Made by a program: the position numbers and the translations under genes. Positions 285 to 40,886 of a stretch of 41,188 nucleotides of DNA are shown in pieces. Where the stretch lies: contig JAFRGQ010000049.1 of NCBI GenBank assembly GCA_017433725.1, forward strand, positions 1 to 41,188, in the 5' to 3' direction. The notes below the pieces were generated by a model that did no database searches, was not told the DNA's origin, and saw only the letters and a list, made by a program, of their open reading frames with translations. The DNA comes from Lachnospiraceae bacterium (lineage in GTDB: Bacteria > Bacillota > Clostridia > Lachnospirales > Lachnospiraceae). Within the stretch, counting starts at the first letter, position 1. Every line of letters begins with the position of its first letter.

Positions 285-406
285 CTTTTTCACCTTCACA
301 CCGGTCATATTCGTCTCTGACGTATGTATAGACTGCAACATTAAACCCGGAACCGTATCGGTTCCAATTCACACACCACAGAACCTGCTGCAAAGGGGGT
401 ATGACA

Positions 407-1438
407 ATGGGCTATGTTCTGAGTAACGACGGATTTGAACAGGTCGTACAGGCACTTTCTGACAAGTATCGCCTGTTCGCACCTGTACGCAAAGAAGGAA
501 TGGGCCGCTTCACGGACATCGATGTGATCATGTACGACGAAGTCCGCCACGCCGATGAAATCGAGCTGGCACAGAAATCGGACTATTCCTTCAAGGAATT
601 TCTGACGCCGCTGTCCGAAACGCTCTTCTACTTCACGGAGAGCCAGTGCCGCGAGGCCGAGCTTCCGGACAAGCCGGTCCTGATCTTCCTTCGGAGCTGC
701 GACATGCACGCGTTGAAGCGGCTCGACCAGATTTATCTCGACAACGGACCGGAAAAAGACTGGTTCTACCTGAGAAGAAGAAACCTGGTAAAATTCGCAC
801 TGATCGGCTGCACGGAAAGTTTCGAAAACTGCTTCTGCGCAAGCATGGGCGCCAACAAGACAGAGGACGGCTACGAGTTCAGTGTTGAACTGTCCGATGA
901 CGGCGTTCGCTGCGACGTGGCGGAGGCATCTCTTGAGAAGCTGTTTCAGGCAAATGCGCTCCGCCCCGAAACCTTCTCCCCCGCCTTCGTGACGGAAAAC
1001 AAGGTAAAGGTGGAGATACCGAAGAAAGTTCCGGCAAGCATCCTGAAAGACCCGCTCTGGGATGAGTACACAACACGCTGTATTAACTGCGGCAGATGTA
1101 ATTTTGTCTGTCCCACCTGCACCTGCTACACAATGCAGGACGTCTTCTACACCGACAACGGCAAAGTCGGCGAGCGCAGGAGAGTCGGAGGATCCTGCAT
1201 GGTCGACGGCTACACCAACGTCGCCGGCGGAGGTCAGTATCGCCGCACTAACGGCGAGCGCATGCGCTTCAAAGTTCTCCACAAGATCGTGGATTACAGA
1301 AAGCGTTTCGGCTATGACATGTGCGTAGGCTGCGGACGATGCGACGACGTATGTCCGGAATACATTTCCTACACCAACATAATTAAGAAAGTCTTCGATG
1401 CATCCGCAGATGAAAACAAGGAGGTGAGTGATAAATGA
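407..1438 (+). CDS. asrA: Anaerobic sulfite reductase subunit A
   Basis: Electron-transfer subunit of the dissimilatory-type AsrABC complex, which reduces sulfite to sulfide in the cytoplasm. The protein of about 343 residues carries two ferredoxin-like Cys clusters, CINCGRCNFVCPTC at about 225-238 and CVGCGRCDDVCP at about 305-316, separated by the GGS..DGYTN stretch typical of AsrA and related hydrogenase/heterodisulfide electron carriers. An earlier in-frame ATG exists at 401, but it directly abuts the AAAGGGGG ribosome site (392-399). The ATG at 407 has proper spacing and gives the usual N-terminus MGYVLS. The stop overlaps the asrB start (ATGA), so the two are translationally coupled. 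Family and operon order together make the call firm. Confidence 0.93.
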   Translation: MGYVLSNDGFEQVVQALSDKYRLFAPVRKEGMGRFTDIDVIMYDEVRHADEIELAQKSDYSFKEFLTPLSETLFYFTESQCREAELPDKPVLIFLRSCDMHALKRLDQIYLDNGPEKDWFYLRRRNLVKFALIGCTESFENCFCASMGANKTEDGYEFSVELSDDGVRCDVAEASLEKLFQANALRPETFSPAFVTENKVKVEIPKKVPASILKDPLWDEYTTRCINCGRCNFVCPTCTCYTMQDVFYTDNGKVGERRRVGGSCMVDGYTNVAGGGQYRRTNGERMRFKVLHKIVDYRKRFGYDMCVGCGRCDDVCPEYISYTNIIKKVFDASADENKEVSDK

Positions 1439-2283
1439 AAAATTCCCACATTCCATTCTCCTCTAAAATACTGGACACTATTATTCACAAGGATTTAAAG
1501 AATCCCTACATCCCGTTCCCGTCTGAGATTCTCGAGGTAATCAAGCACACGGAAAAAGAGTACACGTTCCGGATGGAATTTAAGGGCAAATGCAAACCCG
1601 GCCAGTTCTTCGAAGTCTCCATGCCGAAATACGGCGAAGCTCCTATCTCCATCAGCGGTATCGGTAAGAACTATGTGGACCTCACGATCCGAAAGGTCGG
1701 ACGCGTGACGGACGAGGTATTTGAACACTATGCCGGCCAGATACTGCTTCTGCGCGGACCGTACGGTAACGGATTTGACACAGACCTGTACGCTGACGGC
1801 GAAACGGTCGTCGTAGCCGGCGGAACCGGCGTCTCTCCGGTCCGCGGCGTAATCGAGGCGCTTAGCAACATGCCGAACGCGAAAGACAAATATGTCATCG
1901 CCGGTTTCAAGAGCCCCTCCGACATGCTCTTCCGCGATGATCTCAAACGCTGGGCTGACAAGCTCAATTTAATTCTCACGGTCGACGGAGCTCCCGAAGG
2001 CTATGAGGGAAATATCGGTCTCGTAACAAAATACGTGGCAGACCTGCCGCTTCGCGACCCTGCTAACTGCAAGGCCGTTGTGGTCGGACCGCCGCCGATG
2101 ATGCGCTTTACAATAATCGAACTGCAGAAAAAAGGCTTTAAGGATGAGAATATTACGGTCTCCTATGAGAGAAAGATGTGCTGCGGTCTCGGCAAGTGCG
2201 GACACTGCCGTGTGAACGACAAGTACATCTGCCTGGACGGACCTGTCTTCAACTACACTGAAGCCAAAGAGATGATGGACTAA
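1435..2283 (+). CDS. asrB: Anaerobic sulfite reductase subunit B (FAD/NAD(P)H, 2Fe-2S)
   Basis: Flavin subunit that takes electrons from NAD(P)H and passes them to AsrA/AsrC. It is a ferredoxin-NADP reductase-like protein of 282 residues: an FAD-binding barrel with APISIS near 63-68, the nucleotide loop GGTGVSP at about 129-135, and a C-terminal 2Fe-2S Cys cluster CCGLGKCGHC at about 249-258 with a fourth Cys in ICLDGP. The start is preceded by AAGGAGGTG (1418-1426). Odd feature: residues 3-18 and 23-38 are imperfect copies of each other (N-x-x-IPF-x-S-x-IL...I-x-H). The second copy corresponds to where this family normally starts, so about 20 extra N-terminal residues appear duplicated. Confidence 0.92.
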   Translation: MKNSHIPFSSKILDTIIHKDLKNPYIPFPSEILEVIKHTEKEYTFRMEFKGKCKPGQFFEVSMPKYGEAPISISGIGKNYVDLTIRKVGRVTDEVFEHYAGQILLLRGPYGNGFDTDLYADGETVVVAGGTGVSPVRGVIEALSNMPNAKDKYVIAGFKSPSDMLFRDDLKRWADKLNLILTVDGAPEGYEGNIGLVTKYVADLPLRDPANCKAVVVGPPPMMRFTIIELQKKGFKDENITVSYERKMCCGLGKCGHCRVNDKYICLDGPVFNYTEAKEMMD

Positions 2284-2299
2284 GGGAAGGAGGTATATT

Positions 2300-3280
2300 A
2301 TGGGAAATTTAGATATTAACATCGGAAAACTCAAAAAGAACGCCTTCCGCTACTCCAAGGTCAGGGGCGAGACAGCTTCCAGAATCCGTATTCCCGGCGG
2401 CGTGATTGACGCAGCCTCCCTGGGCAAAGTCGTGGAAATCGCAGAGAAATACGGCAAAGGCGTCATTGACATCACTAATCGTCAGGGTATCGAGATTCCC
2501 GGAATCAAGCTCACGGATATGGACGCTGTGAACAAGGAAATCCAGGAAATTATCGAAGCCCTTGAAATCAACCAGAAAGAACCCGGAATGGGCTATCCCT
2601 CCTCCGGCACAAGAAACATTCAGGCATGTCCCGGCGCGCGCCTCTGTCCGTTCGGATGCTATGACACGACGGCATTTGCTCAGAAAATGGAGAAGCTGGT
2701 CTATCCGAATGACCGCCACGTAAAGATCGCCTTTACGGGCTGCTCCAACGACTGCGGCAAAGTCAGAATGGCTGACTTCGGCATCATCGGCATGACCGAG
2801 CCTCAGTACGATCCGAACCGCTGCGTGGGCTGTGAACAGTGCATCAACTTCTGCAGGAGGAGGTCCGTAGGTGCGCTCTCACTCGTCAACGGCAAAGTCG
2901 TGCGCGATACCGCCAAGTGCATCGGCTGCGGCGTCTGCGTAGCTTACTGCCCGACAAGAGCATGGACACGCAGCAAGGAGCACTATTTCCGTCTGGTCCT
3001 GCTCGGCCGTACCGGCAAGAGAAATCCGCGCCTCGCGGAGGACTTCATCAAGTGGTGCGATGAGGAGAGTATCCTGAAGATCGTCAAGAATTCCTACGCT
3101 TATATCGAGGAATACATAGATCCGAACGCGGTAGAGCACAAGGAGCATATCGGCTACATTGTGGACCGCACGGGATTCGAGGAGTTCTTCAAGTACATCA
3201 TGGAGGGCGTTGAGCTGCCGGAGAAGGCTGAAGTCTCGAAGAGGCTTTACTGGGGCGGCAATCATTATGATCACTATTGA
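2300..3280 (+). CDS. asrC: Anaerobic sulfite reductase subunit C (siroheme)
   Basis: Catalytic subunit: siroheme-[4Fe-4S] sulfite reductase, six-electron reduction of sulfite to sulfide. The 326-residue protein has an N-terminal nitrite/sulfite reductase ferredoxin-like domain. Siroheme/Fe-S cysteines follow in CPGARLCPFGC (about 110-120) and CSNDCGK (about 148-154). Two inserted 4Fe-4S motifs, CVGCEQCINFC (about 175-185) and CIGCGVCVAYCP (about 207-218), distinguish AsrC from assimilatory enzymes. It starts 16 bases after asrB behind GGAAGGAGGT and is followed by a strong terminator, so asrABC is one closed operon. Substrate could in principle be nitrite, but the three-subunit context favours sulfite. 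Confidence 0.92.
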   Translation: MGNLDINIGKLKKNAFRYSKVRGETASRIRIPGGVIDAASLGKVVEIAEKYGKGVIDITNRQGIEIPGIKLTDMDAVNKEIQEIIEALEINQKEPGMGYPSSGTRNIQACPGARLCPFGCYDTTAFAQKMEKLVYPNDRHVKIAFTGCSNDCGKVRMADFGIIGMTEPQYDPNRCVGCEQCINFCRRRSVGALSLVNGKVVRDTAKCIGCGVCVAYCPTRAWTRSKEHYFRLVLLGRTGKRNPRLAEDFIKWCDEESILKIVKNSYAYIEEYIDPNAVEHKEHIGYIVDRTGFEEFFKYIMEGVELPEKAEVSKRLYWGGNHYDHY

Positions 3281-21792: not shown

Positions 21793-22086
21793 AACTTAAT
21801 ACAGCTACAAACCAATGAGGAAGAAATAGTAACACGAACCTCTTTCTGACCAGTGAGCCGCAGACAGTGGAAATGCGGAGAGAAATGCCGTGCGAATGGG
21901 CTTCCGAGGGCGAACCGAACCCCGAACGGGCAGTAGGCGAGACGGAGCAGGATCTCCGTGATCAAAATCCGGCATATGATGGTATGCATGAGAGGACGCA
22001 ATAAGCGTCAAGTTGGGTGGCACCGCAGGAGTTTATTATCGCTCTTGTCCCTTCAGTTCTGATGGGGACAAGAGCGTTTTCTTTTT
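21793..22086 (+). ncRNA. T-box riboswitch, tryptophan-specific
   Basis: tRNA-sensing leader. Stem I base GGAAG pairs with CUUCC, an AGUA loop-E element is present, and the specifier is GAA-UGG-G-CUUCC-GAG with UGG (Trp) at 21897-21899. The T-box core GGGTGGCACCGC is at 22015-22026. Its variable base C would pair with discriminator G73, as in bacterial tRNA-Trp. The terminator GCTCTTGTCCC (22041-22051) / GGGGACAAGAGC (22064-22075) plus a T-run (22076-22086) ends it. Uncharged tRNA-Trp would open the downstream gene. The following 22087-22256 shows no further structure. Confidence 0.92.
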
Positions 22087-22256: not shown

Positions 22257-23651
22257 ATGAGCAAGAAGTATGATGTACCTTACAAGATGTATCTGGAAGA
22301 GAAAGAAATCCCGAAGAAATGGTATAACGTGAGAGCGGACATGAAGACCAAGCAGGCTCCGCTCCTGAACCCCGGAACCCTCGAGCCGATGGGCGCTGCA
22401 GATCTTGCTCCGGTCTTCTGCGAAGAACTCGTAGCGCAGGAGCTCGACGACAATACCCCGTACTACGACATCCCGAAAGAAATCCATGACTTCTACAAGA
22501 TCTATCGCCCGTCGCCGCTCATGCACGCGGAATATCTTGAGAAAGCACTGGGAACTCCGGCTCACATCTTCTATAAGTTCGAAGGAAACAACACATCCGG
22601 CAGCCACAAGCTGAACTCCGCGCTTGCCCAGGCATACTACGCCAAGAAACAGGGACTCAAAGGCGTCACAACCGAGACCGGTGCCGGCCAGTGGGGCACT
22701 GCCCTCTCCATGGCCTGCTCCTTCTTCGACCTCGACTGCAAGGTCTTCATGGTCAAAGTTTCCTACGAGCAGAAGCCGTTCCGCCGCGAAGTAATGCGCA
22801 CATACGGCGCAGACGTAACTCCGTCTCCGTCCGATACGACCAAGATCGGCCGCGAGATTCTTAAAGCACACCCGGGAACAACAGGTTCCCTCGGCTGCGC
22901 AATCTCCGAGGCGGTCGAAGTTGCCGTCTCAAATGAAGGTTACCGCTATGTTCTCGGCAGCGTTCTCAACCAGGTGCTCCTGCACCAGTCCGTAATCGGA
23001 CTTGAGACAAAACTCGCCTGCGATAAGTACGGAATTAAGCCGGACATGATCATCGGATGCGCCGGCGGCGGTTCAAACCTCGGCGGTCTGATTGCCCCGT
23101 TCATGGGCGAGAAGCTCCGCGGAGAAGCAGACTACGACATCGTGGCAGTCGAACCGGCATCCTGCCCGAGCTTCACACGAGGAAAATATGTCTATGATTT
23201 CTGCGACACCGGTATGGTCACACCGCTCGCCAAGATGTACACACTCGGCCACGATTTCATTCCTTCGGCAAATCACGCCGGCGGTCTTCGTTTCCACGGC
23301 ATGAGTCCGGTCCTCTCCCAGCTGTATCACGACGGCTACATGAGAGCGGTCTCCGTAGAGCAGACGGAAGTGTTCAAGGCAGCAGAGATGTTCGCACGCA
23401 CCGAGGGTATCCTTCCGGCACCGGAATCCAGCCATGCAATTCGTGCTGCAATCGACGAGGCTCTCAGATGTAAAGAAACCGGAGAGGAGAAGACAATCAT
23501 CTTCGGTCTCACCGGCACCGGCTACTTCGATATGGTGGCTTACGAGCAGTTCAACAACGGCACAATGAATGACTACATTCCTACCGATGAGGATCTTGCC
23601 CGCGGATTTGCAAGCATTCCGAAGAAAGCTGACGGAAGCTTTATCGAATAA
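22257..23651 (+). CDS. trpB2: TrpB2-type tryptophan synthase beta subunit, stand-alone
   Basis: PLP enzyme of 464 residues making L-tryptophan from indole and serine. The PLP lysine is Lys118 in NTSGSHKLNSA, and the phosphate-binding loop is GCAGGGSNLGG (about 268-278). The extra length at the N-terminus (YNVRADM..PLLNPGTLEP) and the RPSPL motif mark the TrpB2 branch rather than classic TrpB. There is no trpA or other trp gene beside it, so external or salvaged indole is the likely substrate. The start follows AAAGGAG with seven-base spacing. The upstream Trp T-box makes expression depend on tryptophan shortage, which supports a biosynthetic role. Confidence 0.92.
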   Translation: MSKKYDVPYKMYLEEKEIPKKWYNVRADMKTKQAPLLNPGTLEPMGAADLAPVFCEELVAQELDDNTPYYDIPKEIHDFYKIYRPSPLMHAEYLEKALGTPAHIFYKFEGNNTSGSHKLNSALAQAYYAKKQGLKGVTTETGAGQWGTALSMACSFFDLDCKVFMVKVSYEQKPFRREVMRTYGADVTPSPSDTTKIGREILKAHPGTTGSLGCAISEAVEVAVSNEGYRYVLGSVLNQVLLHQSVIGLETKLACDKYGIKPDMIIGCAGGGSNLGGLIAPFMGEKLRGEADYDIVAVEPASCPSFTRGKYVYDFCDTGMVTPLAKMYTLGHDFIPSANHAGGLRFHGMSPVLSQLYHDGYMRAVSVEQTEVFKAAEMFARTEGILPAPESSHAIRAAIDEALRCKETGEEKTIIFGLTGTGYFDMVAYEQFNNGTMNDYIPTDEDLARGFASIPKKADGSFIE

Positions 23652-34434: not shown

Positions 34435-34458
34435 AACCCCGGCCTCCCGGCCGGGGTT
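34435..34458 (-). terminator. Terminator of the oxidoreductase operon
   Basis: Perfect 10-bp stem AACCCCGGCC / GGCCGGGGTT around TCCC. On the minus strand it is followed by TTTCGCTTTTTTG, 14 bases past the last gene. Confidence 0.88.
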
Positions 34459-34472
34459 GTATTTATACTTAT

Positions 34473-35000
34473 TTAATCAAGATATGTCTTCAGCGCTGCC
34501 AGATTAGCCGGAAGGAATTTAGCCTTGCGGCCTGAGAACATCTTCTCGATCTGCTCACGCACGGTCTCCTCTTTCACGATTCCTGTCTCCTTCAGAATCG
34601 CACTCAGCATGACGATGTTGGACGCTCTCTCATTGCCGAGATCATGCGCGATATCGTTGCACGGAATCTCGAACACATCGCAGTCCTTGCGGTCGGAGGT
34701 CACCGGAACGAGAGAACTGTTGATAAAGATCTTGCCTCCCGGAACCACCATCGACTGGAACTTTGTCAGAGACGGCAGATTCATAACTACGAGCACATCT
34801 GCCTCGTTGATCAGCGGGCAACTGATCGCACGATCGGAAACGACCACGGTGCAGTTGGCTGTGCCGCCGCGCATCTCCGGGCCGTAAGACGGCAGCCATG
34901 TTACTTCAAGTCCTTCTTCCATTGCCGCTTTGGCGATCATCTGGCCGATTGCAAGGGCGCCCTGTCCGCCTGCGCCGGCAAAAAACAATTTTTTCTTCAT
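34473..35000 (-). CDS. 2-oxoacid:ferredoxin oxidoreductase, gamma subunit
   Basis: Gamma subunit (175 residues) of a four-subunit VOR/KOR-type enzyme that interconverts 2-oxoacids plus CoA with acyl-CoA, CO2 and reduced ferredoxin. The N-terminal FFAGAGGQGALAIGQMIAKAA and the later YGPEMRGGTANC are the family's conserved parts; together they contact the CoA and TPP region. The start at 35000 follows GGAGGG and is one base after the beta stop; the frame extends to 35066 only by running through beta. Last gene before the terminator. Confidence 0.88.
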   Translation of the reverse strand: MKKKLFFAGAGGQGALAIGQMIAKAAMEEGLEVTWLPSYGPEMRGGTANCTVVVSDRAISCPLINEADVLVVMNLPSLTKFQSMVVPGGKIFINSSLVPVTSDRKDCDVFEIPCNDIAHDLGNERASNIVMLSAILKETGIVKEETVREQIEKMFSGRKAKFLPANLAALKTYLD

Positions 35001-35001
35001 A

Positions 35002-35745
35002 TTAAAATCCCTCCGGTGTCTTGAAATTTCTGACCGGATAATAATCGGCCATGTTCTGTCCCACATAGTTCAGAGCGTCCTTCGGAGCAAGACCCCAGTT
35101 GGTGGGACATGAAGAAAGGAATTCTACAAATGTAAATCCGAGACGGGCATCCTGAATATCCAGAGCCTTCTTGACCGCAGCCTTGGCTTTACGGACATTT
35201 GCCGGGTTGTTCAGCATGACGCGCTCAACAAATACCGCGCAGTCGATCTGGGAAAGGATCTCGCACATGCGGAGCGGCAGACCTGCCTGCTCTACTGTAC
35301 GGCCGTTTACGGATGTCGTGGTCTTCTGACCGATGAGAGTCGTCGGCGCCATCTGTCCGCCTGTCATTCCGTAGATAGCATTATTAATGAAGAAAGTCGT
35401 GAATTTCTCGCCGCGGTGTGCCGCATGAATGATCTCAGCGGTACCGATGGAGGCAAGGTCACCGTCGCCCTGATATGTAAAAACGACCTGATCCGGGTGC
35501 ACGCGGCGGATGCCGGCAGCAATCGCCGGAGCGCGTCCGTGTGTGGACTCGCACATATCAACATTCATGAAATGATGCGCATTGATCGCGCAGCCGATCG
35601 GCACGACGCCGATCGTGTTGCCGAGAGATCCTCTCTCCTCGAGGCACTCCATGATAATTCGATGTGCGATACCGTGTCCGCAGCCCGGACAGTAGGATGT
35701 ATCGACAGGGATCATACCCTTGGTTGGCTCAAATATTGTTTTCAT
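35002..35745 (-). CDS. 2-oxoacid:ferredoxin oxidoreductase, beta subunit (TPP)
   Basis: TPP-binding subunit of 247 residues: cluster/TPP-associated CPGCGHG (19-25), PIGCAIN, the TPP motif GDGDLASIG (about 93-101) ending at FFINNAIYGMTGGQ. Length and order (delta-alpha-beta-gamma) fit branched-chain (VorDABC) or 2-oxoglutarate (KorDABC) enzymes, not the long indolepyruvate IorA. It overlaps alpha by four bases (ATGA). With an acyl-CoA ligase upstream and an Ile T-box, a branched-chain substrate is favoured. Confidence 0.9.
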   Translation of the reverse strand: MKTIFEPTKGMIPVDTSYCPGCGHGIAHRIIMECLEERGSLGNTIGVVPIGCAINAHHFMNVDMCESTHGRAPAIAAGIRRVHPDQVVFTYQGDGDLASIGTAEIIHAAHRGEKFTTFFINNAIYGMTGGQMAPTTLIGQKTTTSVNGRTVEQAGLPLRMCEILSQIDCAVFVERVMLNNPANVRKAKAAVKKALDIQDARLGFTFVEFLSSCPTNWGLAPKDALNYVGQNMADYYPVRNFKTPEGF

Positions 35746-36821
35746 TTCGTCGCCTCCTTTAATGCTTTTTCCGCGCGGTCCGCGATCTCAATGGATGACG
35801 GGACCATACCGCCTGTACGGTTGATGAGGCTTACCGGCCAGCGGCCCTGAACTGCTGTCTTAACATCCGTGATCATCTGTCCCATGGAGAGCTCCGTGGA
35901 GATAACGACCTTGCAGTTCTTGCCGATCTTGTCAAATGCTGCGTTCGGATACGGCCACAGCGAAATCGGACGAATGAGACCTGCCTTGATTCCGCGCTCC
36001 TCGAGAAGTTCGATGGCCTCCACGCAGAGTCTCGACATAGTTCCGAATGCGACAAATACGATCTCGGCATCCTCAAGTCCCTGATCTGTCCAGCGAACGA
36101 GTTCCTTCTCAGCCTTTGCATACTTTTCGAACATATCGAAGCAATGGTTCTCAAGGACCTGCGGATCAAGACGCAGTGAATAGACAACGTTTCTCTCCGG
36201 ATGATTATCCGTACCCGTGATTGCCCACGGTCTTTCATCATTGATCTTCTCGACCGGCGTGATGCCTCTTGCTTCCGGCAGCTCGACCGGCTCCATCATC
36301 TGTCCCAGCATACCGTCTGCCAGGATGACGACCGGATTTCTGTACTCATCAGCGATGTCAAAGCATTCGTAGATGAGATTTGCACACTCCTGAATGCTGG
36401 ACGGTGCAAATACCGGCACCCTCACGTCGCCGTTATATCCGCCGCGGGTGACCTGCAGATAGTCTGCCTGACCCGGCTGAATACCGCCGACGCCGGGGCC
36501 GCCGCGGGAAACATTCAAAATAACGAGCGGTACTTCGCAGGATGCAATGAAACCGATACCTTCCTGCATCAGCGCGAGACCCGGTGAACTTGTGGAAATG
36601 AAAACTCTTCCGCCGCTCGCCGATGCTCCGAACGCCATATTAATGGCAGCAAGCTCGGACTCAGCCTGGATAAAAGCGCCGCCGGCCTTCGGGAGCTCAT
36701 GGCTCATATACTCGGGGATTTCATTCTGCGGCGTGATGGGGTAGCCGAAATAACATTTGACGCCTGCGCGGATCGCCGCTTCCGCAAATGCCTCATTACC
36801 TTTCATCAGGACTCTGCTCAT
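35742..36821 (-). CDS. 2-oxoacid:ferredoxin oxidoreductase, alpha subunit
   Basis: Alpha subunit of 359 residues: N-terminal pyrimidine-binding half with LMKGNEAFAEAAIRAG, YPITPQNEI and ESELAAINMAFGASASG, then SSPGLALMQEGIG. The transketolase C-terminal half includes FVAFGTMSRLCVEAIELL. It pairs with beta to form the TPP site. It overlaps both the ferredoxin subunit (upstream) and beta (downstream) by four bases, so all subunits are translationally coupled. Confidence 0.9.
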   Translation of the reverse strand: MSRVLMKGNEAFAEAAIRAGVKCYFGYPITPQNEIPEYMSHELPKAGGAFIQAESELAAINMAFGASASGGRVFISTSSPGLALMQEGIGFIASCEVPLVILNVSRGGPGVGGIQPGQADYLQVTRGGYNGDVRVPVFAPSSIQECANLIYECFDIADEYRNPVVILADGMLGQMMEPVELPEARGITPVEKINDERPWAITGTDNHPERNVVYSLRLDPQVLENHCFDMFEKYAKAEKELVRWTDQGLEDAEIVFVAFGTMSRLCVEAIELLEERGIKAGLIRPISLWPYPNAAFDKIGKNCKVVISTELSMGQMITDVKTAVQGRWPVSLINRTGGMVPSSIEIADRAEKALKEATK

Positions 36822-37054
36822 GACTCACCCTCCTCTAACTGATAAATGCTGATGCAATAATCCGGACACATTGTGGCGCAGCTTGCGCAGCCGATGCAGC
36901 TTTCCTGATCGGTGATGCCTGCGGGATGATATCCCTTGGCGTTCACTTCCGGATCCAGAGCAAGAATTTTCTTTGGACAGAAATTAATGCAAAGCTCGCA
37001 GCCCTTGCATTTTTCCCGGTTGAAAACAACCTTGAATCTTTTCTTCATTTTCAT
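36818..37054 (-). CDS. 2-oxoacid:ferredoxin oxidoreductase, delta (ferredoxin) subunit
   Basis: Small 78-residue 2x[4Fe-4S] ferredoxin-like subunit: CKGCELCINFCP and CIGCASCATMCP. It carries electrons between the TPP centre and free ferredoxin. AAGGAGAG lies just before ATG 37054. An in-frame ATG two codons later is equally possible. First subunit of the complex, 88 bases after the ligase stop, with no terminator between. Confidence 0.9.
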   Translation of the reverse strand: MKMKKRFKVVFNREKCKGCELCINFCPKKILALDPEVNAKGYHPAGITDQESCIGCASCATMCPDYCISIYQLEEGES

Positions 37055-37142
37055 GTCTCTCCTTTATTGATTCATCGCGGCAGAAACCCTGACACGCAAT
37101 TTCGCATGCCAGGGTGTTCGTTACGCATCGTCCAACGACACA

Positions 37143-39464
37143 TTATAGCTGATTGCGAATGATTTTTCCACTGATTGTCTTCGGCAACTCGCTCTTAAAT
37201 ACAACTATTCTCGGATACTTGTAAGGAGCAGTACGCTTCTTGACATAATTCTGGATCTCTTTCTTGAGTTCCTCGCTCTCTTCCGTACCCTTCACAAGGA
37301 CAATACTTGCCTTGACGACCTGGCCGCGGATATCGTCCTTCTCGGCAGATACGCCGCACTCCAGAACATACGGAAGTTCCATGATAACGCTCTCGATCTC
37401 GAACGGTCCGATGCGGTATCCGGAGGACTTGATGATGTCATCCGTACGTCCCACATACCAGAAGTAACCGTCCTCATCCTTCCATGCAAGGTCTCCGGTG
37501 TGATACCAGCCGTCACGTTTGCAGGCGTCGGTCGCTTCACGATTATTAAGGTACTCTTTGAAGAGTCCGCACGGCTCACTTCCGCCGTAGCGCACGCATA
37601 CCTCACCGGACTCACCGACATTCACTTCCTTGCCGTCCGGATCCAGAAGCGACACCTTGTACATCGGGCTCGGCTTGCCCATCGAACCCGGCTTAGGCGT
37701 CATACCGATAAAGTTACCGACGGTAAGCGTGGTCTCTGTCTGGCCGAAGCCTTCCATGATGGAGATGCCGGTCGCCTCGCGGAAGCGTGTGAAGACCTCC
37801 GGATTCATCGCCTCGCCCGCGATGCTTGCGTGGCGGATGGAGGAGAGATCGTATTTGCTGAGATCTTCCTTAATAAAGAAGCGATACATCGTCGGCGGCG
37901 CACAGAATGTCGTGATCTTATACTGCGCGAAAAGCGGCAGGATATCGTCGGCGTGGAAGCGGTCGAAGTCGTAGACAAATGTTGCTCCGCCGTTCATCCA
38001 CTGTCCGTACAGCTTGCCCCAGAGAGCCTTGCCCCAGCCGGTGTCGGAGATCGTCAGATGAAGTCCTTCCGCATGTACACACTGCCAGTAGCGGGCGGTG
38101 ACAAAGTGGCCGAGGGCGTATTTGCAGCTGTGAACGACCGCCTTCGGATATCCCGAAGTTCCGGACGAGAACAGCATCAGCATCTTGTCATTGCCCTTGA
38201 TGGACTCGCCTGTGCGGCGGTAGCGGCTGGAATACATCTCGTATTCATCGTCAAATGAATGCCAGCCCTCACGTCTTCCCGCCGTCGTGAAGAGATGCTC
38301 GACCGACGGGCAGTTGGCCATTGCCTTCTCGACTTCTTCAATACAAGCTGTCTCCGCGTTGCAACAGACTGCCTTGACATTGGCGGTCTGGAAACGGTAT
38401 TCCAGATCCTTCTGCTTCAGCTGATCCGTTGCCGGGATTGCAACGGCACCCAGTTTATGAAGACCAACGATGATCGGCCAGAACTCCCAGTTCCTGCGAA
38501 GGAGGAGCATTACGCTGTCGCCCTTCTTGATGCCCTGTGCCTTGAAGTAGTTCGCAGCACGTGCGCTCATCTTCTTCATTTCAAGGAATGTGAAACGGCG
38601 CTCGAATTTGTTCTTATCCAAATGGATCATGCAGAGGCGGTCCGGCTCCTTCTCGGCGATCGCATCTACAACGTCAAATGCAAAGTTGAACTTCTCCGTA
38701 TTCTTGAACGTAACGCTCTCCGGATAGCCGTCCTCGCGCTCTTTGACCGAGACAAAGTTCGAGACAAAGTTCGGGGCGCTCAGAGCGGACGGGGAGACCT
38801 CCTTCTGGATCACATCGGCCGGAACCTTGGATCTCAGACGGCCTTTTTCCCATTCCACCTCGGCTCCTTCCTCGGGAAGGACGATAGCCAGGAAGCGGAC
38901 ATCCTGTCCACCGACTGCGATGATACCGTGAGGATTGGAGGAGTTATAGAAAATGCTGTCGCCGGCATGGAGGATTTCCTCATTATCCTTGATCTTGATC
39001 TTCAGGGATCCCTCAAGGACATAGTCGAATTCCTGGCCCGGATGTGTCACCTGCTCGATCGGCTCGTGCTGCTGTGCCTCATCATAGTTGTAAATAACGA
39101 AGTATGGATCTGCAATCCTGTCCTTAAAGAGCGGAGCAATGTTCTTGATCAGAACGCCCGGCTCCTGCGAGGTGAGCTGTCCGCCGCCTGCACGGGTCAG
39201 TGTGTAGCCCGTCAGAAGGGGTGTACGGCCTTCCAGAAGCTCCATAATTTCTACGTCGAATACGGATGCGCATTTATGAATGAACGAGAACGGCAGATCC
39301 GCCCTTCCGCCCTCATAATCGATGTAATCCGTGAGGGAGAAACCGGTCATGTCCGCCATTTGCTCCTGTGTGTAACCACTGTCGACACGAAGCGCCATGA
39401 TACGGCTGGCGACTTCCTTTTCCATGTCGCTTGCTGCTCGCTGGTGTGCTGCGTTTGTAGGCAT
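37143..39464 (-). CDS. XRE-cupin-acyl-CoA ligase fusion protein
   Basis: Three-part protein of 773 residues. Residues about 15-80 are an XRE-type helix-turn-helix (GYTQEQMADMTGFSLTDYIDY). About 105-205 is a cupin (HPGQEFDYVLEGSL, HAGDSIFYNSSNPHGI). About 255-773 is an adenylate-forming ligase with LFSSGTSGYPKAVVHS (P-loop), EGFGQTET, WYHTGDL, GRTDDIIKSSGYRIGP and the C-terminal catalytic Lys in KTISGKI. The ligase resembles medium/branched or aryl acyl-CoA synthetases. The XRE-cupin pair is normally a free regulator, so this may be an enzyme that also controls its own operon. AGGAGG seven bases before the ATG sets the start. It is transcribed from the Ile T-box leader. Confidence 0.88.
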   Translation of the reverse strand: MPTNAAHQRAASDMEKEVASRIMALRVDSGYTQEQMADMTGFSLTDYIDYEGGRADLPFSFIHKCASVFDVEIMELLEGRTPLLTGYTLTRAGGGQLTSQEPGVLIKNIAPLFKDRIADPYFVIYNYDEAQQHEPIEQVTHPGQEFDYVLEGSLKIKIKDNEEILHAGDSIFYNSSNPHGIIAVGGQDVRFLAIVLPEEGAEVEWEKGRLRSKVPADVIQKEVSPSALSAPNFVSNFVSVKEREDGYPESVTFKNTEKFNFAFDVVDAIAEKEPDRLCMIHLDKNKFERRFTFLEMKKMSARAANYFKAQGIKKGDSVMLLLRRNWEFWPIIVGLHKLGAVAIPATDQLKQKDLEYRFQTANVKAVCCNAETACIEEVEKAMANCPSVEHLFTTAGRREGWHSFDDEYEMYSSRYRRTGESIKGNDKMLMLFSSGTSGYPKAVVHSCKYALGHFVTARYWQCVHAEGLHLTISDTGWGKALWGKLYGQWMNGGATFVYDFDRFHADDILPLFAQYKITTFCAPPTMYRFFIKEDLSKYDLSSIRHASIAGEAMNPEVFTRFREATGISIMEGFGQTETTLTVGNFIGMTPKPGSMGKPSPMYKVSLLDPDGKEVNVGESGEVCVRYGGSEPCGLFKEYLNNREATDACKRDGWYHTGDLAWKDEDGYFWYVGRTDDIIKSSGYRIGPFEIESVIMELPYVLECGVSAEKDDIRGQVVKASIVLVKGTEESEELKKEIQNYVKKRTAPYKYPRIVVFKSELPKTISGKIIRNQL

Positions 39465-39497
39465 TTTGCTACCTCCTCATTTTAGAAAATATGTAAC

Positions 39498-39648
39498 TAT
39501 TCAGCATCCCACGAAAATGAATGATTTACAGGACGAAATGCTTGCATTTCGGATATAATCATTCATTTTTGTGGGCGGACAAGGCGCGAAGCGCCTCTGA
39601 CCGCAACATGAGCGAGGCGCGAAGCGCCTGCGAATGGGATGCTGAATA
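39498..39648. mobile_element. TA-flanked MITE-like palindromic element
   Basis: The perfect terminal repeats TATTCAGCATCCCA (39498-39511) and TGGGATGCTGAATA (39635-39648) end in TA, as in IS630/mariner-type insertions. Inside are AAAATGAATGATT/AATCATTCATTTT, a CGAAATG-CTTG-CATTTCG hairpin and two direct copies of the palindrome GGCGCGAAGCGCC (39583-39595, 39616-39628). It has no transposase and no gene. It lies between the T-box terminator and the ligase start. Confidence 0.65.
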
Positions 39649-39651
39649 ATT

Positions 39652-39945
39652 AAAAAAATAAAAACCCGTCCCAAAGGATTCTTTGAGACGGGCATAATAA
39701 ACATGCTCGCGGTACCACTCAAATTGCGCCGTGCGGCGCCTCTCAACGGACTCCATCAAGTCCCGGGCACTAACGCAGCCTTCGCGGGAGTACCTAACGG
39801 CAAGTGCCGCTCAGCGCTCCGACTCGGAAGTGATAAATCATTGAAAGCGCCTTCTTCCTGCTCTCAGCAAATGCAGAATCTCTGTGTTCCGGACATCTCT
39901 CGATCGTCTTCGTCATAGTCTTTGTATGAATTTTCGTGCTTTAAC
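39652..39945 (-). ncRNA. T-box riboswitch, isoleucine-specific
   Basis: tRNA-sensing leader read on the minus strand. Stem I has GAAG pairing with CUUC, the CAGAGA bulge and a UUGCUGAGA distal loop. The specifier region AUC-A-CUUCC-GAG matches the layout of the Trp T-box at 21897 (codon, one purine, CUUCC, GAG), giving AUC (Ile) at 39832-39834. The T-box core GTGGTACCGCG is at 39709-39719. Its variable U fits discriminator A73 of tRNA-Ile. The terminator CCCGTC..CAAAG/CTTTG..GACGGG (39665-39692) with a long U-run (39652-39664) follows. Confidence 0.88.
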
Positions 39946-39956
39946 GCTGAAGAGAA

Positions 39957-39985
39957 TTTTAGCAGATAACATAGGGGGTGTCAAC
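39957..39985 (-). promoter_or_regulatory. Promoter of the Ile T-box operon
   Basis: On the minus strand TTGACA is followed by 17 bases and TAAAAT, a near-consensus sigma-A promoter that would start the transcript close to 39950. The -35 is at 39980-39985 and the -10 at 39957-39962. Confidence 0.75.
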
Positions 39986-40148: not shown

Positions 40149-40886
40149 ATGAAAAACTTCCTGAAAAGTATAGCCACCGGTCCCCGCATCATCCTCGTGA
40201 CCGGACACTTCGGCAGCGGAAAAACCGAATTTTCCGTCTCCCTTGCCTTCGCCCTCGCGGCGATGCGCGATGAAGGCGTCGCCGACCTGCCGTCTCTCGC
40301 TCTCTGCGATCTCGACCTTGAGAATCCCTACTTCCGGAGCCGTGAACTCACGGAAGAAATGGAGAGCATAGGAATCCGGGTCTACTCCGACCCATACCAC
40401 GGCCGCAACGGCTCGGAGCTCCAGACACTTGACCCGGCCATTCTCGCCCCTGTTCAGAACCCCGACTGCCATGTCATCATGGACACCGGCGGAAACAACA
40501 CAGGCGCCATGATCCTCAACCAGTTCCGCAAGCACTTCGGCGGTGAATACCGCATGCTCTACGTGGTCAACAAGAACCGTCCCGGTACCGACACGGTCGA
40601 AAAGAACCTTGAAGAAATAAAAGCGATCGAGGCCACGACCGGACTCATCGTGACAGGTCTTGTTTCCAACAGCCATTTTATCCGTGAGACAACGGCAGAG
40701 GACGTAAAGGAGGGCTACGCATTTGCCTGCGAAGTCGGCGCGAAGAGCGGTCTCCCGGTCCTTTGCGCCTGCTGCAGCGCGGAGATAGCCCGTGAACTGG
40801 AGGAAGACGATACGGCAGATGCATCCATGGAAATCTTCCCCATCGGGCTCTACATGCGACAGACATATCTGGACAAGAAAGTGTAA
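40149..40886 (+). CDS. P-loop NTPase, CobQ/MinD-like
   Basis: Cytosolic ATP/GTP-binding protein of 245 residues. Walker A is TGHFGSGKTEF (about 18-28), then LALCDLDLENPYFRSRE and HVIMDTGGNNTGA resemble the switch and Walker B parts of the MinD/CobQ/ParA class. LYVVNKNRPGTDTVE could supply base recognition. A Cys-rich stretch LCACCSAEIA occurs near the end. Specific role unknown. GAGGA nine bases before ATG 40149 is a better start than the in-frame ATG at 40122. It is divergent from the acyl-CoA ligase/oxidoreductase operon, which may hint at a shared pathway. Confidence 0.75.
   Translation: MKNFLKSIATGPRIILVTGHFGSGKTEFSVSLAFALAAMRDEGVADLPSLALCDLDLENPYFRSRELTEEMESIGIRVYSDPYHGRNGSELQTLDPAILAPVQNPDCHVIMDTGGNNTGAMILNQFRKHFGGEYRMLYVVNKNRPGTDTVEKNLEEIKAIEATTGLIVTGLVSNSHFIRETTAEDVKEGYAFACEVGAKSGLPVLCACCSAEIARELEEDDTADASMEIFPIGLYMRQTYLDKKV

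Follow-up and report, generated by a model that had tools for sequence, protein, structure and literature searches.

Branched volatile acids have been recognised as amino acid precursors in rumen anaerobes for some five decades or more (work of 1966 and 1971 is cited in PMC7356843; this and the other papers are cited here from partial texts). Isobutyrate and 2-methylbutyrate serve in the rumen as precursors of valine and isoleucine, respectively, and a carboxylation route from isovalerate to leucine is named in the title of a reference (PMC7356843). Methanobrevibacter ruminantium is thought to form isoleucine via reductive carboxylation of 2-methylbutyrate (PMC2812497). Enzymes that activate such acids include MacsMa of Methanosarcina acetivorans, which favours 2-methylbutyrate and has a pocket tryptophan, Trp259 (PMC10455477), and MbcS of Staphylococcus aureus, which activates 2-methylbutyrate and isobutyrate, and isovalerate poorly (PMC10026030). 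On the minus strand of contig JAFRGQ010000049.1 of a Lachnospiraceae bacterium (the window, that is, the whole analysed stretch of 41,188 nucleotides), a T-box leader with an isoleucine specifier precedes the genes of a fused acyl-coenzyme A (acyl-CoA) ligase and of a four-subunit 2-oxoacid:ferredoxin oxidoreductase of the VOR type. This operon very probably represents the isoleucine arm of a pathway that salvages branched-chain acids into branched-chain amino acids. The reading draws on the T-box and its specifier, their link to the ligase in most relatives sampled, the agreement between specifier and ligase type, and an anticorrelation with ilvC, all of them read from sequence.

In the proposed route, whose tRNA response, substrates and reductive direction we infer, uncharged tRNA-Ile would build up and bind the AUC T-box, allowing transcription to pass the leader terminator. 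The ligase would convert 2-methylbutyrate to 2-methylbutyryl-CoA, VOR would use reduced ferredoxin and CO2 to carboxylate this product to 3-methyl-2-oxopentanoate, from which a branched-chain aminotransferase would form isoleucine. Many relatives also have a valine arm, with a separate Val T-box and a ligase paralogue whose acyl pocket would be smaller, to suit isobutyrate. Isoleucine in this gut or rumen bacterium would probably be made from a fatty acid that its neighbours shed.

The individual parts are of known kinds. The leader shares stem I, K-turn, specifier loop, UGGN T-loop and terminator with the RF00230 T-boxes of amino acid biosynthesis and aminoacyl-tRNA synthetase genes; unlike them, it targets an operon for acid activation and 2-oxoacid:ferredoxin oxidoreduction. 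The ligase has its best structure and NCBIfam matches in what we take to be MacsMa and in MbcS, respectively, whose substrates include 2-methylbutyrate and, for MbcS, also isobutyrate, and it keeps the tryptophan aligned with that of the MacsMa pocket; unlike either, it has an XRE-cupin fusion, T-box control, a VOR partner and a Val-type paralogue with alanine at residue 478. The proposed net reaction is the one attributed to rumen anaerobes and M. ruminantium, known in the former as physiology and in the latter as a genome-based inference, whereas here dedicated genes are present with a T-box for each amino acid. The combination, the control by one T-box per amino acid and the agreement between specifier and pocket appear to be new. 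The original prediction had called new a unit tying Ile-tRNA sensing to this salvage route, and no literature report of the gene set, its T-boxes or the specifier-pocket agreement was found by a search that scarcely reached subscription papers and T-box databases. The terms "ferredoxin" and "acyl-CoA" are absent from the main text of the T-box and riboswitch papers searched by term.

The operon and the gene divergent from it are arranged as follows.

39984-39956, minus strand: sigma-70-like promoter TTGACA-N17-TAAAAT with TG before the second hexamer (11 of 12 matches)
39925-39681, minus strand: T-box leader, stem I to antiterminator (RF00230, 71 bits, E 2.4e-15; conserved in relatives)
39834-39832, minus strand: specifier triplet AUC, isoleucine (covariance-model match and manual reading)
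39717-39714, minus strand: T-loop UGGU, variable base U, pairing with discriminator A (model match and manual reading)
39693-39664, minus strand: leader's intrinsic terminator (stem of 13 pairs followed by a U-rich tail)
39662-39498, minus strand: palindromic element of 165 nt, resembling a miniature inverted-repeat transposable element, between leader terminator and ligase start codon (folding)
39464-37143, minus strand: XRE-cupin-acyl-CoA ligase, 773 aa, Ile type, Gly478 (Pfam, PDB match)
37054-36818, minus strand: VOR delta subunit, 2x[4Fe-4S] ferredoxin (domain scan)
36821-35742, minus strand: VOR alpha subunit, VorB type (NF005507, 474.3 bits, cut-off 399)
35745-35002, minus strand: VOR beta subunit, thiamine-pyrophosphate-binding (Pfam TPP_enzyme_C over cut-off; no NCBIfam model over cut-off)
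35000-34473, minus strand: VOR gamma subunit (PF01558, 142.5 bits, scanned as 34473-35009; start placed manually at the ATG at 35000)
34458-34435, minus strand: closing hairpin or terminator (10 pairs, tail TCGCTTTTTT)
40152-40886, plus strand: P-loop ATPase, transcribed divergently from the operon and related to the P-loop gene of relatives' clusters (L101:12663-13322, 33% identity, E 4e-34)

The RF00230 covariance model matches the window leader over its full length in a permissive scan (positions 1-219 of 219), with a score below the Rfam gathering score of 93, so that a default Rfam scan gives no match. For nine orthologous leaders 5' of the same gene the model reaches 77 to 99 bits, and four exceed 93 (99.2, 96.8, 96.8 and 93.6). 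Read by hand, the leader consists of a basal helix GACU/AGUC, a K-turn and a helix GAAG/CUUC, with AUC-A immediately 5' of CUUC; the specifier, taken to be the triplet separated by one base from the 3'-adjoining helix that closes the loop, is then AUC. It is conserved in relatives together with gene function, and the T-loop fits a tRNA with discriminator A. Anchored on the specifier, 97 of 100 Ile and Val leaders could be parsed: the helix adjoining the specifier loop pairs in 94, 94, 94 and 96 of them, with exchanges between A-U and G-C, and the basal helix in 84, 94, 96 and 69, its last pair often being G-A. The minimum-energy fold of the window leader alone is unremarkable (z -1.27). A close relative (L035) has a promoter TTGACA-N17-TACAAT 5' of its T-box, read by eye. 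What the original prediction had made out here is confirmed: the T-box, recovered by the covariance model albeit under the gathering score, its isoleucine specifier and variable base U, the near-consensus promoter, and the order ligase-delta-alpha-beta-gamma on one strand, with which the domain scans agree. Its closing terminator is there too, as a hairpin whose U run is not immediate. The genes from ligase through gamma are likely a single transcript, and no more than likely because a strong hairpin and a promoter-like site separate ligase from delta.

The ligase contains AMP-binding, AMP-binding_C and Cupin_2 domains above the Pfam cut-offs and an N-terminal XRE-like helix-turn-helix, with HTH_19 just under its cut-off (27.8 vs 30.2). 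Its nearest solved structure is PDB 3ETC (624.6 bits, E 2.2e-186), which we take to be MacsMa, and its best NCBIfam match is MbcS. Both the adenylate-forming core and the closest sequence kin place it with the MacsMa/MbcS branched short-chain acyl-CoA synthetases, and by sequence it ranks as kin of MbcS, not MbcS itself. The MacsMa pocket tryptophan aligns with ligase residue 460 (own count), which is tryptophan in all 133 rows of the ligase tree. Residue 478 (window numbering, within ISDTGWGK) presumably aligns with the acetate-pocket residue Val310 of Salmonella Acs. An exchange of glycine for alanine at this position would fit an acid smaller by one methylene, isobutyrate as against 2-methylbutyrate, by making the pocket smaller; this rests on the alignment because an AlphaFold model of the ligase built from 12 rows was poor (mean predicted local distance difference test score 65.3) and was not used. 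A similar XRE-cupin and ligase pair also occurs as two adjoining genes, at L120:3263-5850 (contig 53 of the window's genome) and in G079 and G103, which suggests that the XRE-cupin part arose by fusion of a neighbouring regulator gene.

Relatives were drawn from two sources. A search with the window ligase covered 298 genomes from its own family and gave a match at E <= 1e-100 in 48; an intact fused ligase is carried by 14 of the 48, and 34 match without one. An alignment of 12 fused ligases was then searched against named species genomes, from which the best 80 of at least 584 confirmed stretches were taken; most of these records are metagenome-assembled genomes labelled Clostridia or families within, and many come from ruminants. 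L002 and L005 duplicate the window and the L016 row is near-identical to that of L097; other near-copies were kept in the counts. L107, cut at a contig end, is not among the counted fused ligases, and L021 was excluded from the tree. The labels of L061_5728, L113_8403 and L100_8766 and the specifier of L112:7504 were set by eye because of wrong starts or regular-expression misses. The T-box of L111, unscored and ambiguous in its specifier (AUC or UCA), is not counted.

Within the family, the T-box adjoins the fused ligase in 10 of the 14 genomes (the window's own and nine others); none lies beside it in G176, G196, G192 and G274, the contig of G196 starting at the gene. In all loci sampled, 98 of 117 fused ligases have an upstream T-box; for the 95 called automatically, its median distance to the start codon is 61 nt. 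By comparison, a T-box within 1.5 kb occurs in none of the 16 unfused ligases (L019-L034). Six fused ligases (L098, L099, L103, L104, L105 and L110) form one T-box-less clade, and its two searched genomes, L098 and L103, keep ilvC.

Specifier and ligase type agree closely. The 98 T-box-bearing ligases divide into 69 with AUC (Ile) and 29 with GUA, GUC or GUG (Val), and in all 21 loci that hold both types the Ile unit comes before the Val unit. When 133 ligases are placed in a quick tree, a single clade of 34 takes in 28 of the 29 with a Val label (Shimodaira-Hasegawa-like approximate likelihood ratio test 100, no bootstrap); the Val label changes twice on this tree, against a mean of 25.1 when shuffled, and none of 500 shuffles is as low. 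Residue 478 is glycine in 69/69 Ile ligases and alanine in 29/29 Val ligases, as well as in the six unlabelled rows of the Val clade. It is the best separator of the groups within the ligase domain, and three positions of the XRE-cupin part separate them equally. L051 lies outside the Val clade, has a GUG specifier and groups with the Ile-type L037. It carries Ala478 together with Ser578 and Ile581, which are common in the Val clade, and stays Ile-like at the N-terminal positions 50, 64 and 121. Since L051 is outside the clade and monophyly of the Val ligases is rejected (approximately unbiased test, p-AU 0.005, on a subset of 59 of the 133 rows), specifier and residue 478 have switched jointly at least twice.

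The partners of the ligase are consistent with the same pathway. All four VOR subunits are present in the window; alpha exceeds the cut-off of NF005507 and belongs to the VorB subfamily, and beta, gamma and delta reach no NCBIfam cut-off. Many relatives have a cluster in which an Ile T-box with its ligase and a Val T-box with its ligase are joined by a ParA-like P-loop ATPase, the VOR genes (delta-alpha-beta-gamma) and a branched-chain aminotransferase, so that ligase, VOR and aminotransferase occur together; the cluster aminotransferase of L101 scores 497.6 bits with NF009897 (cut-off 307). In the DNA sampled at 94 ligase loci (the window, L006-L018 and L035-L114), VorB is found at 33, and these 33 include the P-loop gene in 32, the window among them, and the branched-chain aminotransferase in 18. 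The window's genome has an ilvE over cut-off on another contig. The P-loop gene at 40152-40886 has no Pfam or NCBIfam match; as a guess, its family might be an iron-sulphur or complex assembly factor. A cluster of ligase, aminotransferase, P-loop gene and VOR also stands in L107, a record labelled Spirochaetales, through either horizontal transfer or a mislabelled contig of a metagenome-assembled genome.

The textbook route is probably replaced in most ligase genomes. A 40-genome sample comprised the 14 family genomes with a fused ligase and 26 without, namely 19 of the 20 non-matching family genomes shown and 7 of the 34 that match without an intact fused ligase; G004 was left out (contamination 6). 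In this sample ilvC is over cut-off in 1/14 genomes with the ligase vs 25/26 without (Fisher p 1.6e-8), and VorB in 14/14 vs 2/26 (Fisher p 5e-9), neither p value being corrected for relatedness. The ilvE gene is general (13/14 with the ligase, 24/26 without). A genome of the same genus, G175, 98% complete, has ilvC and lacks both ligase and VorB. Acetolactate synthase was rejected as a discriminator, being weak (over cut-off in 9/14, two of them with an internal stop, vs 26/26). The original prediction had looked to relatives for T-box, ligase and VOR together and for a loss of ilvA or cimA; the cimA model reached its cut-off in none of the 40 genomes and is uninformative, and ilvC proved the informative gene.

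Several observations weigh against the isoleucine salvage reading. In the window, the large hairpin element at 39495-39665 (-76.9 kcal/mol, z -10), with partial matches at two further sites in the genome, separates leader from ligase gene; the aminotransferase is absent from the operon; and the ligase scores 439 bits against an MbcS equivalog cut-off of 850. The window's genome lacks ilvC, which at 76.8% completeness is weak evidence alone, and it has an acetolactate synthase over cut-off. G185 has both fused ligase and ilvC over cut-off, as do seven of the named ligase genomes (L036, L040, L043, L045 and L062 with a T-box, L098 and L103 without) among the 50 of 80 taken, a set without matched background or stated completeness from which L081-L096, L099-L102, L104-L111, L113 and L114 were left out. 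The named loci, as best matches to fused ligases, are not a random sample. Nineteen of the 117 fused ligases have no called T-box; besides the T-box-less clade these are L010 and L106, with too little upstream DNA, five second ligases behind a T-box-bearing one, L011 (in the Val clade), L111, and L009, L012, L083 and L087. Ala478 is shared by 7 of the tree's 15 unfused ligases, which lack a T-box, and is therefore not a mark of Val control alone. No VOR lies downstream in 24 loci with at least 5 kb there (31 have VorB and 25 too little DNA); it may sit elsewhere, as in G079 and G103, beside the split XRE-cupin gene and ligase. As an observation on the hairpin element, the same element stands between T-box and ligase at L035:488-645, in opposite orientation and with about 87% identity.

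Three other explanations were weighed. The operon might be catabolic, with VOR forming acyl-CoA by oxidative decarboxylation of branched 2-oxoacids and the acid being handled by the ligase or its reverse; VOR enzymes are indeed usually described as oxidative in peptide fermenters, and as reversible. A T-box, however, turns genes on when an amino acid is scarce, an AMP-forming ligase run in reverse conserves ATP poorly, the 13 of 14 sampled ligase genomes without ilvC would otherwise need uptake, and the Ile and Val T-boxes match the ligase type, all of which makes this explanation improbable. No better are the chances that the ligase, like MbcS in S. aureus, provides membrane lipid synthesis with branched acyl-CoA primers: the resemblance to MbcS, whose role is known, speaks for it, and the amino-acid-specific T-boxes, the cluster shared with VOR and aminotransferase and the absence of ilvC from most ligase genomes speak against it, although a double use of the ligase for lipids and amino acids is possible.

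Least probable of all, and only marginally credible, is a complex that acts on other acids, for example aryl acids such as indoleacetate and phenylacetate, with the Ile T-box incidental. Models for indolepyruvate and other 2-oxoacid oxidoreductases do match, but below cut-off, whereas the alpha subunit passes the VorB cut-off only; the specifiers are Ile or Val in all 98 T-box-bearing ligases, and the tryptophan aligned with the MacsMa pocket is invariant across the tree. The pathway from 2-methylbutyrate to isoleucine, as originally predicted, is instead supported by the kinship with MbcS and 3ETC, the lack of ilvC in nearly all sampled ligase genomes, the presence of VorB and ilvE, and the clustered aminotransferase; its direction and substrate are those that we propose.

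The isoleucine arm was borne out, and the original prediction was too narrow in stopping there, since relatives also have a Val arm and an apparent Leu arm. A third T-box lies 5' of a LeuA-like protein in 15 loci (13 with CUC or CUG by script; L077 and L078 with CUC by eye), and most of these loci continue with a TIM-barrel/AMP-ligase protein of about 830 aa, some with an amidohydrolase. The window's genome (G000) carries this unit on contig 56 (L119:903-5304), with a Leu T-box (CUC), an RDG-less LeuA-like protein and a TIM-barrel/AMP-ligase fusion of 832 aa. A single run in G192 takes in the genes for the aminotransferase, the LeuA-like protein, the TIM/AMP ligase, the P-loop protein and VOR, and one in G176 those for the LeuA-like protein, the TIM/AMP ligase and both XRE-cupin ligases; the TIM/AMP genes of G176 and G060 have one in-frame stop each. 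At E <= 1e-150, the TIM/AMP ligase is present in 13/13 of the sampled forty with a fused ligase but no ilvC, and in 0/27 others; counted by the fused ligase, this is 13/14 genomes with it and 0/26 without. The exclusion is not strict among named genomes: that of L040 has ilvC along with LeuA-like and TIM/AMP ligase genes, and that of L045 has ilvC along with a Leu T-box and LeuA-like gene.

An N-terminal RDG is a hallmark of LeuA, and it is absent from the first 60 residues of all 16 LeuA-like open reading frames (ORFs) inspected, the true N-terminus not being visible in L075, L108 and L112. The leuD cut-off is reached in none of the 40 genomes. Below it, a small LeuD-like ORF (156 to 302 aa) occurs in all 26 ligase-less genomes and in G185, and is not matched in the 13 ligase genomes without ilvC; among these, the matches of G000 and G274 lie within larger ORFs, of 602 and 649 aa. 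Synthesis of leucine through LeuA by the Leu-T-box unit is doubted, given the missing RDG and, from sub-cut-off matches, the missing small LeuD-like genes. The TIM/AMP ligase is not close to MacsMa; that it activates isovalerate for leucine is a fair guess from its setting, and the LeuA-like protein without N-terminal RDG may serve as a leucine sensor. The balance tilts slightly towards a wider scenario, in which a lineage of gut and rumen Clostridia has largely swapped de novo synthesis of isoleucine, valine and leucine for a three-armed salvage island: Ile, Val and Leu T-boxes would each control an acid:CoA ligase of their own (two being XRE-cupin fusions, the third a TIM-barrel/AMP-ligase fusion), one VOR and one aminotransferase would be shared, specifier and pocket would co-evolve, and the RDG-less LeuA-like protein would be a possible leucine sensor. 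It is rated no higher because the genomes of L040 and L045 have ilvC.

The locus gives candidate genes for a known use of acids, control through tRNA that identifies what each arm makes, and a prediction of substrate size from one residue, 478. Many gut and rumen genomes that look auxotrophic for Ile, Val and Leu for want of ilvC may be prototrophs that depend on the acids; a published gut reconstruction has in its pathway table, in the portion available, ilv/leu variants and no carboxylation route (PMC9026213). Models of cross-feeding and the use of branched-acid feed supplements would be affected.

Three further features were noted. A second T-box lies in the window at 21806-22055 (68.6 bits), before a TrpB2-like gene (22260-23651). 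Two tandem copies of Clostridiales-1 RNA (RF01699) stand directly 3' of the ligase at L006:1182-1499 (G060). Finally, window positions 401-3280 encode the anaerobic sulfite reductase genes asrA and asrC, both over their cut-offs, with one ORF between them.

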